Positions 60,289 to 62,688 of a DNA stretch of 64,000 bases are shown here, in pieces (within the stretch, counting starts at the first letter, position 1; each line of letters starts with the position of its first letter). Origin of the DNA: Gemmobacter aquarius (GTDB lineage Bacteria; Pseudomonadota; Alphaproteobacteria; Rhodobacterales; Rhodobacteraceae). The translations under genes and the position numbers were made by a program. Location: positions 1,414,001 to 1,478,000 of the forward strand of contig NZ_CP028918.1 in the NCBI RefSeq assembly GCF_003060865.1, written 5' to 3'. The notes below the pieces were generated by a model. It was not told the origin of the DNA. It ran no database searches and was given only the letters and a program-made list of their open reading frames with translations.

Positions 60289-60312
60289 CGGCGCGCCCTT
60301 GCAGGCGCGCCG
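60289..60312. terminator. Bidirectional hairpin between bolA and the PDZ-like gene
   Basis: CGGCGCGC and GCGCGCCG form a perfect 8-bp stem with an 8-nt loop in the 41-nt gap between convergent genes. There is no strong U-tract on either side. Confidence 0.5.
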
Positions 60313-60322
60313 TGGCGGGGTG

Positions 60323-61732
60323 TTACTCGATATATTCCTCGCCACCGTCGCCGCCGCCCGTATCTTCATAGGCCGGCTCTTCGACCGCGGGCTCCTCGTA
60401 AGCCGGTTCTTCGTAAGCCGGTTCTTCGTAAGCCGGTTCTTCGTAAGCGGGTTCTTCGACGGCTGCTTCGGTGCAGGAGCCATCGACAATCTCGCCCGCG
60501 CAGTATTCTTCGGCAGGGGCTTCTTCCTCGATGGCCGGTTCTTCGGCAGGGGCCTCGTCGGTATAGCCTTCGTCGGTTGTCGCCTCGTCGGTGGCTTCGC
60601 CGTCCGTCGCTGTCTCGTCGGTGTAGCCTTCGTCGGTGGTCGCCTCGTCGGTGGCTTCGCCGTCCGTCGCTGTCTCGTCGGTATAGCCTTCGTCGGTGTA
60701 GCCTTCGTCGGTGGTCGCCTCGTCGGTTGTCGCTCCGTCGGTGGCTTCGCCGTCCGTCGCTGTCTCGTCGCTATAGCCTTCGTCGGTTGTCGCCTCGTCG
60801 GTGGCTTCGCCGTCTGTCGCTGTCTCGTCGGCATAGCCTTCGTCGGTGGCCGCGCCGTCCGCAACCGTCCCGTCAGAGGAGACTTCGTCAACGCCGGACG
60901 CGTCCTCGTTGTCACTCTCTGCCGGAGCGTCTTCGACAAAGGCGGTGTCTTCGGGGGCGTCGGCAAAGGCAGGCTCGGCCGGGTCGTCGGCCGCGCTATA
61001 GGCGACCACGCCTTCGTTTCCACTCCAGACTTCGCCGGTCCCGCCCGAAACATAGCTTCCCTCGACGATCTCCTCGTCATAGGACATGGAGCTTTCCTCG
61101 ACCGTGGTTTCCATCGACGACACGAAGCTGGTCTCGCTGATCCGTTCCTCGATCAGTGTCTCGGAATACTCGTAGCTCGAGATGATCGTCTCGGAATAAT
61201 ACGAATAATATTCGGTGTAGCTGTAGCTGGAATAGCTGAAGCTCGTCCATTCATAGACCGAATAGACATCGATCGGCAGGTAATAGTAATCCCATGTGAT
61301 CGGCGTCACGGCGCGGTAGGTCCGCCCGTTCTTGCGTGCGCCGACCAGCGCGTAATCGGTCACGCCATTGGTCAGGTAATAGGCGATGATCGTGTCGACA
61401 TCGATCGGCTGACGCACCTTGTAGCCAAGGATCGAGCTGATCACATCGCCGGGTTTCAGCCCTGCCATCTTGGCGATGCCGTCGGGCTGGACCGAGACGA
61501 CCATCACCCCCTTCGCGCCTTTGGCAAGGCGGAACTTCTTGGCCACCGATTTCGTCACCGGCATCAGCACGGCTTTCAGCGCACGGCTGACATAGGGCTT
61601 GGGCAGGGTCGATTTCTTGACGGTCTTCGCCTCGACCTGCGTCGGGTATACCGTAACGGCCAGGCCCATGGGCGCTGCAAGGGACAGGGTCACGCACAGG
61701 CTGCGCAAGACCGGCTTGAGGAAGATATTCAC
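60323..61732 (-). CDS. Exported PDZ-like protein with Tyr/Ser-rich segment and repeated acidic tail
   Basis: 469 aa from a GTG at 61732 with AAGGAA upstream. A signal peptide (about 1-35) and a PDZ-like domain (about 45-135: GAKGVMVVSVQPDGIAKMAG, LKPGDVI) come first. Then a Tyr/Ser-dominated segment (about 150-205) with SFSYSSYSYTEYYSYYSET, and a long acidic tail. The tail holds 20-residue repeats of the TDEGYTDETATDGEATDEAT type and EEPAY pentapeptides. A CAGEIVDGSC Cys pair lies between the two repeat types. The tail is probably disordered and the protein periplasmic or surface-linked. It is a paralogue of the next gene. I know no named family for this architecture. Confidence 0.75.
   Translation of the reverse strand: MNIFLKPVLRSLCVTLSLAAPMGLAVTVYPTQVEAKTVKKSTLPKPYVSRALKAVLMPVTKSVAKKFRLAKGAKGVMVVSVQPDGIAKMAGLKPGDVISSILGYKVRQPIDVDTIIAYYLTNGVTDYALVGARKNGRTYRAVTPITWDYYYLPIDVYSVYEWTSFSYSSYSYTEYYSYYSETIISSYEYSETLIEERISETSFVSSMETTVEESSMSYDEEIVEGSYVSGGTGEVWSGNEGVVAYSAADDPAEPAFADAPEDTAFVEDAPAESDNEDASGVDEVSSDGTVADGAATDEGYADETATDGEATDEATTDEGYSDETATDGEATDGATTDEATTDEGYTDEGYTDETATDGEATDEATTDEGYTDETATDGEATDEATTDEGYTDEAPAEEPAIEEEAPAEEYCAGEIVDGSCTEAAVEEPAYEEPAYEEPAYEEPAYEEPAVEEPAYEDTGGGDGGEEYIE
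60367..60460 (-). repeat. Tandem 15-bp repeats encoding EEPAY
   Basis: About six near-identical units produce EEPAY or EEPAV copies at the extreme C-terminus. Unit length keeps the frame. Confidence 0.8.
60554..60850 (-). repeat. Tandem 60-bp repeats encoding a 20-residue acidic unit
   Basis: Between four and five units of a 60-bp sequence (TCGTCGGT-GTAGCCTTCGTC... on the plus strand) encode DEGYTDETATDGEATDEATT-like copies. One unit carries extra 15-bp blocks. All length differences are multiples of 3, so the frame is conserved. Confidence 0.8.
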
Positions 61733-61784
61733 GCGCGTAATTCCTTACTGGTAAACGGGCAGCACCATCGCCACCCACACTGGG

Positions 61785-61812
61785 AAAAAACGGCCACCCC
61801 ATCGGGCGACCG
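61785..61812 (-). terminator. Rho-independent terminator after the second PDZ-like gene
   Basis: On the minus strand CGGTCGCCC pairs with GGGTGGCCG (one G-T on each side) around a GATG loop and is followed by six T. It separates the two paralogues transcriptionally. Confidence 0.7.
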
Positions 61813-61824
61813 CATCAGACCGGA

Positions 61825-62688
61825 TTATTCGACGATCTCTTCTTCGCCGCCCTCGTCGCCCCCGGCGTCGCCGCTGTCGTCGCCTGCGCCGTCGTCAGCC
61901 GCGCCTTCGTCAGCCGCGCTTTCGTCGCCAGCATCAGCCGCGCCTTCGTCGGCTGCTGCATCGGCGCAGTCGGGGTTGACCGCCGGATCGCAAACCTCGT
62001 CTTCGGCTACAGCCTCGTCGCCCGCCATGTCCCCGTCGACGGCCTCGCCCTCGACCTCGGCATAGCCTTCGTCTTCGGCCTGCATGTCGGTCTCGAACTC
62101 TTCCGACGTGACCGATTCCTCGATCATTGTCTCGGAGGCTTCGTAGCTTTCGGTGATTTCTTCGGAATACTCGGCGTAATATTCGCTGTAGCTGAAACTT
62201 TCATAGGAATAGCTCGACCAGCTCGACACGGTGGTGATGTCGATCACGCTTTCCCACGATTCCAGCGTGATCGTCGTCGTGGCCTTGTAAGGCTTGCCCC
62301 CGCGCAGCGCGTTCATTTCGAAATCGAAGGCACCCTGCAGGATCCAGTAATAGACCACCTCGTCCAGATCGGCGGGGCTCAGGATCGCCTCGCCCTTCAC
62401 GAAATCGATCACGTCGCCCGGTTCGATGCCAGCGGCATCGGCCAGACCGTCGGGTTCGGTCGCAAGGACCAGAACGCCTGTAGAGCCAGCCGCCAGACCG
62501 AATGCCGACACCACCGAGGCATCGACCGGCATCAGCACCGCATCGAGCGCGCGCGAAACAGAGGGTGCCGGCAGGGTGCCGGCCGCCAGCGCAGGCACCG
62601 GTGCAAGCAGCACGTAGCCCGCTGCCGGAACCGTTACGGTCAAAGCGAGAGCAGCCATTTTCAGGAAGGTCGTCTTGGGTCGCGACAT
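61825..62688 (-). CDS. Exported PDZ-like protein, paralogue with acidic Ala/Asp/Gly tail
   Basis: 287 aa from ATG 62688. A signal peptide (cleavage near ALAA) is followed by a PDZ-like domain (about 40-125: GSTGVLVLATEPDGLADAAG, IEPGDVIDFV). A Tyr/Ser segment (WSSYSYESFSYSEYYAEY) and an acidic tail rich in Asp/Glu/Ala/Gly (AADEGAADAGDESAADEGAA) complete it. A CDPAVNPDC Cys pair matches the Cys pair of its neighbour. The same order of parts in both proteins shows a gene duplication followed by separate tail expansion. Function unknown. Confidence 0.75.
   Translation of the reverse strand: MSRPKTTFLKMAALALTVTVPAAGYVLLAPVPALAAGTLPAPSVSRALDAVLMPVDASVVSAFGLAAGSTGVLVLATEPDGLADAAGIEPGDVIDFVKGEAILSPADLDEVVYYWILQGAFDFEMNALRGGKPYKATTTITLESWESVIDITTVSSWSSYSYESFSYSEYYAEYSEEITESYEASETMIEESVTSEEFETDMQAEDEGYAEVEGEAVDGDMAGDEAVAEDEVCDPAVNPDCADAAADEGAADAGDESAADEGAADDGAGDDSGDAGGDEGGEEEIVE

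Follow-up and report, generated by a model that had tools for sequence, protein, structure and literature searches.

In a window of 64,000 nucleotides from Gemmobacter aquarius (contig NZ_CP028918.1, positions 1,414,001 to 1,478,000), by which we mean the whole stretch of DNA analysed, two neighbouring genes of the minus strand, here called gene A (61825–62688) and gene B (60323–61732), seem to be two members of an undescribed and patchy alphaproteobacterial family of apparently exported, protease-less PDZ proteins. According to sequence comparison and structure prediction the members would share one plan, namely a PDZ domain of HtrA type, a strand–helix element with an invariant tryptophan and a fast-varying polyanionic tail with a Cys-pair island. 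PDZ fold and acidic tails are each of a known kind. The statement of a first-pass annotation, made from the letters of this DNA alone, that no named family has this plan holds for Pfam, NCBIfam, PHROGs and the open-licence PubMed Central (PMC) literature, in which no description of the architecture of A and B was found either. Tentatively, and with somewhat less than even confidence, we suggest that both proteins are exported non-enzymatic PDZ scaffolds, periplasmic or secreted, with a cation-binding polyanionic tail.

Architecture of the two proteins

Gene A starts with ATG and codes for an acidic PDZ protein of 287 residues (plus stop) with a signal peptide; gene B starts with GTG, has AAGGA upstream and codes for 469 residues (plus stop) with a basic PDZ head and a long acidic repeat tail. 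Both open reading frames (ORFs) were found where the first-pass annotation had placed them, with the same order of signal peptide, PDZ domain, Tyr/Ser segment, acidic tail and Cys pair; all of the following features lie on the minus strand. In A a Sec-type signal peptide (residues 1–36, 62581–62688), recognized by eye from a basic n-region, a hydrophobic core and an AxA-like end, is followed by the leader LPAPxVSRALDAVLMPV together with the HtrA-type PDZ domain (residues 37–140, 62269–62580). Then come the Tyr/Ser segment (residues 157–209, 62062–62220), comprising Trp157, short strands, an amphipathic helix (167–193) and a further helix (196–209), and an acidic low-complexity tail of low model confidence that is probably disordered (residues 210–287, 61828–62061). 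The tail includes the Cys-pair island CDPAVNPDC (C233–C241, 61966–61992) and ends with the motif GDEGGEEEIVE (61828–61860). The corresponding parts of B are a Sec-type signal peptide, also read by eye (residues 1–35, 61628–61732), leader and HtrA-type PDZ domain (residues 36–144, 61301–61627), the Tyr/Ser segment with a modelled helix pair (residues 162–216, 61085–61249) and the acidic repeat tail (residues 217–469, 60326–61084). Tandem Repeats Finder located two arrays in this tail, an imperfect one with periods of 15, 60 and 75 nucleotides and TDEGYTDETATDGEATDEAT-type units (60555–60848) and one of 15 nucleotides that codes for 6.4 copies of EEPAY (60363–60458), so that the 20-residue and EEPAY repeats named in the first-pass annotation are both real. 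The Cys-pair island of B, CAGEIVDGSC (C411–C420, 60473–60502), has a form common to many relatives.

The tail of each mature protein contains its single Cys pair, C233/C241 for A and C411/C420 for B, and the one remaining cysteine of B, C13, is inside the signal peptide. The proteins are 41% identical across the aligned part and the genes are separated by 92 nucleotides. Their heads are oppositely charged, with a net charge of -12 in A (residues 36–153) and +11 in B (residues 40–157). That the two tails differ completely, as was first thought, is true of their repeat types; nevertheless both contain a Cys pair and have a similar C-terminus (GDEGGEEEIVE and GGGDGGEEYIE). Among the 264 loosely defined window ORFs of at least 100 residues, A and B alone show a 45-residue stretch with at least 7 Tyr and 9 Ser, and they alone show a 70-residue C-terminal tail with at least 24 Asp/Glu and at most one Lys/Arg.

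An ORF of 588 residues on the plus strand (60299–62065) covers the whole of gene B and part of A. It was rejected as a real gene since relatives, signal peptides and conserved domains all speak for the minus-strand ORFs, a decision taken on the evidence of the minus strand while the plus frame itself was not searched; probably it is a by-product of GC-rich repeat codons. Rfam at gathering thresholds gave no match between 59900 and 64000.

PDZ domain and relationship to HtrA proteases

Pfam PDZ_6 matches A with 22.2 bits (E 1.2e-4) and B with 24.3 bits (E 2.6e-5), both under the cut-off of 27 bits, which some relatives exceed (e.g., P0051 with 32.5 bits). NCBIfam listed exclusively models containing PDZ domains (HtrA-, MamE-, GspC-, RseP-type and others), all far under cut-off and in the PDZ region, and PHROGs yielded weak matches only, to the PDZ region, plus one with E 0.21 in the Tyr/Ser part of A. 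No trypsin-like protease domain was matched in A or B by Pfam or NCBIfam. The match of B with Extensin-like PF02095 (14.3 bits, cut-off 105) is sub-threshold and is a match of repeat composition.

The predicted folds of both proteins have the HtrA-type PDZ topology, HtrA chains dominate the matches in the structure library, and the domain is related to the PDZ domains of DegP from the same genome (30% identity over 103 residues, pairwise E 2e-8). A and B thus resemble the periplasmic proteases HtrA, DegP and DegQ in their PDZ domain; they differ from them by the missing trypsin-like domain, by the additional strand–helix element and acidic tail, and by the carboxylate-binding loop. The glycine of this loop (LGV in DegP; LGV/IGI) matters for ligand binding. 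By alignment with DegP it is replaced by Asp49 in A and Lys53 in B and is kept in only 4 of 147 members. Because of this replacement the proposed sensing of a partner by the PDZ domain is doubtful as far as ordinary recognition of a C-terminus is concerned. MamP, a magnetosome PDZ protein (4jj0) which has two magnetochrome domains according to the available part of PMC3971196, differs from A and B in that neither of them contains a CxxCH haem motif. Among 7,852 microbial PDZ proteins surveyed, 93% were assigned to 12 families and 7% left unclassified, and combinations of protease and PDZ made up 88% of the classified proteins (PMC6411480, available part). The present family is apparently exported, lacks a protease domain and has an architecture of its own.

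The Tyr/Ser segment as a predicted helix element

AlphaFold models were built for A, from an alignment of 68 rows, and for residues 36–235 of B. In the model of A (mean predicted local distance difference test, pLDDT, 78.4; predicted template modelling score, pTM, 0.63) pLDDT is 88–98 in the ten-residue blocks covering 41–200 and 50–67 in those from 211 on; helices span residues 167–193 and 196–209, with short bridges within 158–166. The model of B (pLDDT 85.7, pTM 0.81) has its main elements ordered as in A, with helices at model residues 137–163 and 166–181. These pTM values fit a head with the helix in a definite position with respect to the PDZ domain, and we infer such an arrangement. The ordered helices predicted for both proteins contradict the original view of the Tyr/Ser part as a stalk. 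No match spanning the helix element was among the structure-library matches listed, which were filled by PDZ matches.

Column entropies from an alignment of largely type A sequences (i.e., relatives close to gene A) are 0.82 bits for the leader (37–56), 1.40 for the Tyr/Ser part (157–200) and 1.72 for the PDZ body (57–140). The Tyr/Ser part is conserved to the same degree as the PDZ domain. Trp157 is present in all 68 rows and its equivalent is also invariant in an alignment of 17 rows that includes Mesorhizobium and type C proteins. On a helical wheel the conserved Y167, Y170, Y174, I178, S181, Y182, S185 and I189 lie within 300 to 60 degrees and the helix moment of A peaks at 100 degrees. 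Given the predicted helices, the conserved wheel positions and the helix moment, an amphipathic aromatic helix whose aromatic face is mostly on one side is the better reading of the segment, more clearly so in A than in B.

Acidic tails

The tail of A carries a net charge of -31, that of B (counted from residue 214) one of -89. In 147 of 148 proteins, one without the leader motif being left out, the tails contain a median of 43% Asp/Glu and 0% Lys/Arg. From a later set of 92 proteins 83 were counted, after omission of 8 without leader motif and 1 with too short a tail, and 80 of these tails contain at least 25% Asp/Glu. Ninety-one of the 147 tails have no cysteine and 53 have two. For shuffle tests 23 near-duplicates were removed from the 147, which left 124 non-redundant members. 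Of these, 25 contain the motif DxDxDGxxDxxDxD, resembling thrombospondin type 3 (TSP3) repeats, where 1.6 were expected and at most 5 occurred in 300 tail shuffles. The island C-x(3-7)-DG-x-C is present in 29 of the 124 (0.2 expected, at most 3 in shuffles). Together with the strong negative charge of both tails the TSP3-like motif makes the cation-binding tail of the first-pass annotation plausible. In this motif lies the likeness to thrombospondin type 3 and Dx[DN]xDG proteins; the available part of PMC3123361 describes a bias of Dx[DN]xDG motifs towards the outside of cells.

Highly acidic, repetitive and probably disordered sequences are also found in Starmaker-like calcium binders, a comparison which follows the available part of PMC8391695, where acidic disordered proteins are described as binding Ca2+ at roughly 50-100 uM. 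The present family differs in being bacterial and fused to a PDZ domain, and kinship is not claimed. The same holds for PDCP-1 from the shell matrix of Mytilus coruscus, which is similar in being a PDZ protein in an extracellular calcium setting but is an animal protein with a pI of 9.37 and combines PDZ with a ZM domain (PMC7573561, available part).

The last 12 C-terminal columns have an entropy of 1.36 bits compared with 2.17 for the remaining tail, a comparison that is soft since the tail is low-complexity Gly/Asp/Glu sequence. Compared with a near-identical strain (P0122, P0003), B shows two indels, of 10 and 5 residues, both in the tail and the longer one within the array at 60555–60848, and A a single 3-residue indel, again in the tail. 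The heads of this strain show three substitutions in A (S43Y, G81A, S144A) and one in B, if the GTG start is not counted. Tails vary by indels of repeats.

Family types and distribution

A protein search with A found 175 relatives at E<=1e-3, the best 120 of which are mostly of type A, and 31 relatives were found with B. Within the taxonomic family at least 5 of 394 genomes gave strong matches, in a sample of the order at least 2 of 390 and in a sample of the class at least 1 of 385; all counts include the genome of the window itself and are lower bounds, as no more than five candidates were scored in each genome. The other matches listed in these samples are far weaker and cover the PDZ stretch. 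A scan of genome contigs detected 28 loci in Rhodobacter, Cypionkella, Pseudorhodobacter, Rubellimicrobium, Devosia, Mesorhizobium, further Rhodobacteraceae and others, and misses members because a single peptide pattern was used. One of these loci, a match from Rickettsiales (E 2e-7 over 71 residues), was too weak to be counted as a member. Six Rhizobium plasmids each carry a member. The last protein search added more sequences from Mesorhizobium and Devosia as well as Aquamicrobium, Paracoccus denitrificans and two matches labelled Brucella. In this search the family ends at E 1.3e-37 and the next matches, at 2.1e-12, are four proteins with protease domains.

A, B and the aligned relatives (alignments of 68, 55 and 17 proteins) have a signal peptide (by eye), a leader of the form LPxPYVSxALxAVLxPV, a PDZ domain, Trp/Tyr after it and an acidic tail poor in Lys/Arg. 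Where named in the sources, most members are a “hypothetical protein” or a “PDZ domain-containing protein”; endopeptidase, RseP and FlhF are examples of the few names that stray from this. Types differ in the head charge, with a median of -11 in the A-type listing, +12 in type B (n=14) and +2 in type C (n=5), and in the composition after the tryptophan. Type C keeps 16% Tyr but has 7% Ser and 1% Glu (2 of 22 rows being without Trp by the rule used), and some of its tails have a terminal Cys pair, for instance CYYDDDGNLIC. In type D (Mesorhizobium and its kin) Tyr accounts for 5% and Ser for 11%, and in two proteins from Rhizobium the values are 6% for Tyr, 22% for Ser and 31% for Glu. Homologues without Tyr/Ser segment and tail, which by the first-pass annotation would speak against its interpretation, were found by half: Mesorhizobium-type proteins lack the Tyr/Ser richness but keep tryptophan and acidic tail. 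PDZ domain, tryptophan and acidic tail recur across the types, and richness in Tyr and Ser characterizes types A and B.

Several single observations concern individual members. The type D tails of P0224 (labelled Brucella) and P0232 (Paracoccus) show a further repeat type, PEPGQNFDGTNR. The signal peptide of the outlying relative P0240 ends in a lipobox-like LGAVSC, so that this member, at the least, may be a lipoprotein. An in-frame stop close to the start of one relative (L045) and a split frame in another (L067) suggest gene loss or assembly error; the stop in L048 is the proper end of that gene. A genome of the same genus (G009) has 1.5 Mb and a completeness rating of 96%, the genus mostly having 3.9-4.7 Mb, and no family member was found in it.

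Gene A and gene B as neighbours

A conserved two-gene pair, which the first-pass annotation had named as support for its reading, is not what the genomes show. In a tree of 54 head sequences A falls into a clade of four rows (support 100/100) and B into a separate clade of ten rows (99/98). A terminator-like hairpin with U-run lies between the genes on the minus strand (61790–61813); its 48-nucleotide fold has -21.9 kcal/mol (z -2.67, with 2 of 200 shuffles as good), and a terminator scan of the region found five such sites versus 1.8 expected in shuffles, including this one just after A. The hairpin suggests that A and B are separate transcription units.

The corresponding dnaJ-like locus is present in 18 of 19 genomes of the same genus. 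In 12 of the 18 the presumed glcB adjoins the presumed bolA with no family member between them, in four A is present and followed directly by bolA without B, and of the remaining two one contig ends too early and one is the window itself. Among 22 genomes reached via the loci of relatives, six have two members, which never share a contig; by the tree five of the pairs are A+B or A+C, and the partner in the sixth is outside the tree. Fifteen further genomes have one member, and the last has a copy that is split and also a weak match to PDZ. On these grounds (separate clades, hairpin, different contigs, A without B) a conserved operon or pair was rejected. Recent tandem duplication was rejected as well, since A and B belong to separate supported clades and are 41% identical.

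Proposed function and alternatives

Once exported by the Sec pathway, PDZ domain and helix would make up a rigid head, periplasmic or extracellular, that might oligomerise. Through many weak contacts the tail would bind and concentrate divalent cations, Ca2+ or others, and would link heads mutually or to the envelope matrix, while gain and loss of repeat units would tune its length. The opposite head charges together with the very acidic tails make head-to-tail contacts possible: type B members, with a basic head (+11) and an acidic tail (-89), could attach to the acidic tail of either protein, so that A and B together would serve as electrostatic cross-linkers. A bolder form of this proposal, distinctly unlikely in our estimate, is a self-assembling matrix or condensate of HtrA-derived, no longer proteolytic PDZ heads of opposite charge (acidic in A, basic in B), aromatic helices and calcium-loaded tails whose length evolves by repeat slippage, i.e., by analogy, a bacterial counterpart of acidic biomineral matrix proteins held together by electrostatic head-to-tail contacts.

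Several results weigh against the scaffold with a cation-binding tail. The looser motif DxDx[DN]G is not clearly enriched by members (32 versus 27.3 expected, standard deviation 3.8), although it is by sites (95 versus 38.3 expected), and it is absent from the tails of A and B, which sets both proteins apart from thrombospondin type 3; moreover Pfam TSP_3 is not listed for any of ten motif-bearing relatives. In the helix the nearly invariant S175 lies at 80 degrees, just off the aromatic face, and the moment of B peaks at 70 degrees and is weak (0.18) at 100 degrees. Adjacency of A and B among the genomes checked is seen in the window only, apparently also in the near-identical strain, and the loci compared have no neighbour common to the whole family but neighbours varying by subgroup. 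No experiment on metal, binding or localisation of the family was found.

The conserved head and the tail varying in length, repeat type and composition could also mean that only the PDZ–helix head is functional, e.g. by binding one protein or peptidoglycan partner, and that the acidic tail is a neutral, drifting solubilising brush. A parallel exists in the acidic repeat domain of MamJ, which a title in the reference list of PMC3971196 calls hypervariable yet not required. Nearly all tails have nevertheless remained acidic, many keep the Cys-pair island and the C-terminal motif, and a subset has strict TSP3-like spacing, so we consider this explanation possible but on the unlikely side. Less probable still is an HtrA-linked adaptor or decoy, i.e., a protease-less PDZ protein that competes for unfolded outer-membrane proteins or delivers them to DegP/DegQ and whose tail keeps the complex soluble. 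The kinship of the domain with DegP of the same genome and the prevalence of HtrA chains among structural matches would suit this role; on the other side stand the general loss of the loop glycine and the lack of a strong match in most sampled genomes of the taxonomic family, because of which the family can hardly be a core part of quality control.

Buffering of a transition metal such as copper instead of calcium, with acidic tail and Cys pair trapping the metal in the periplasm, would find an argument in the copper cluster about 2-7 kb from one Rhizobium plasmid member, described below. We regard it as very improbable, as no such cluster was seen in the stretches read around the other five plasmid members, the tails of A and B showed no His- or Met-rich stretch, and most tails (91 of 147) lack cysteine altogether. 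Hardly credible is the version of the first-pass annotation, in which a conserved tandem pair acts jointly as sensor and tails: adjacency and opposite head charges fit it, while hairpin, separate clades, members on different contigs and the four genomes with A but no B contradict it. If the tail of the favoured exported scaffold does bind cations, the family would offer a bacterial example of an HtrA PDZ domain put to a structural or matrix use, and its naturally differing repeat lengths would lend themselves to studies of how polyanionic tails evolve.

Genomic neighbourhood

Neighbours of members backed by Pfam include flavodoxin fold, ABC transporter, glycosyltransferase, hydantoinase, TerC, CDP-alcohol transferase, MscS channel, outer-membrane beta-barrel, LprI and M60 peptidase proteins; others we take from their sequences to be glcB, bolA, a dnaJ-like gene, cobS, csp, uvrC and PuuD. 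The particular neighbourhoods that follow are no more than leads. On plasmid pRheCIAT894d of Rhizobium sp. CIAT894 the copper cluster mentioned above (L115:5768-13606) consists of genes for a copper oxidase, a plastocyanin/azurin family protein, DUF411, a TolC family protein and cytochrome b. No such cluster was seen beside the other five Rhizobium plasmid members within 4-8 kb on each side and an incomplete gene table, and a general link with copper in Rhizobium was rejected (one of six plasmid records). Beside two Rhizobium plasmid members there are genes for a diguanylate cyclase and a polysaccharide (heparin-type) lyase (L116:8833-11063, L118:8728-10922). All three Mesorhizobium loci compared show a type D member followed by a gene of the lysozyme inhibitor LprI type (PF07007; L064:6969-8096, L065:6853-7299, L067:6881-7291). 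The distance between the two genes is 8-9 nucleotides in L064 and L065, based on our own ORF starts, and they possibly constitute an envelope-linked operon.

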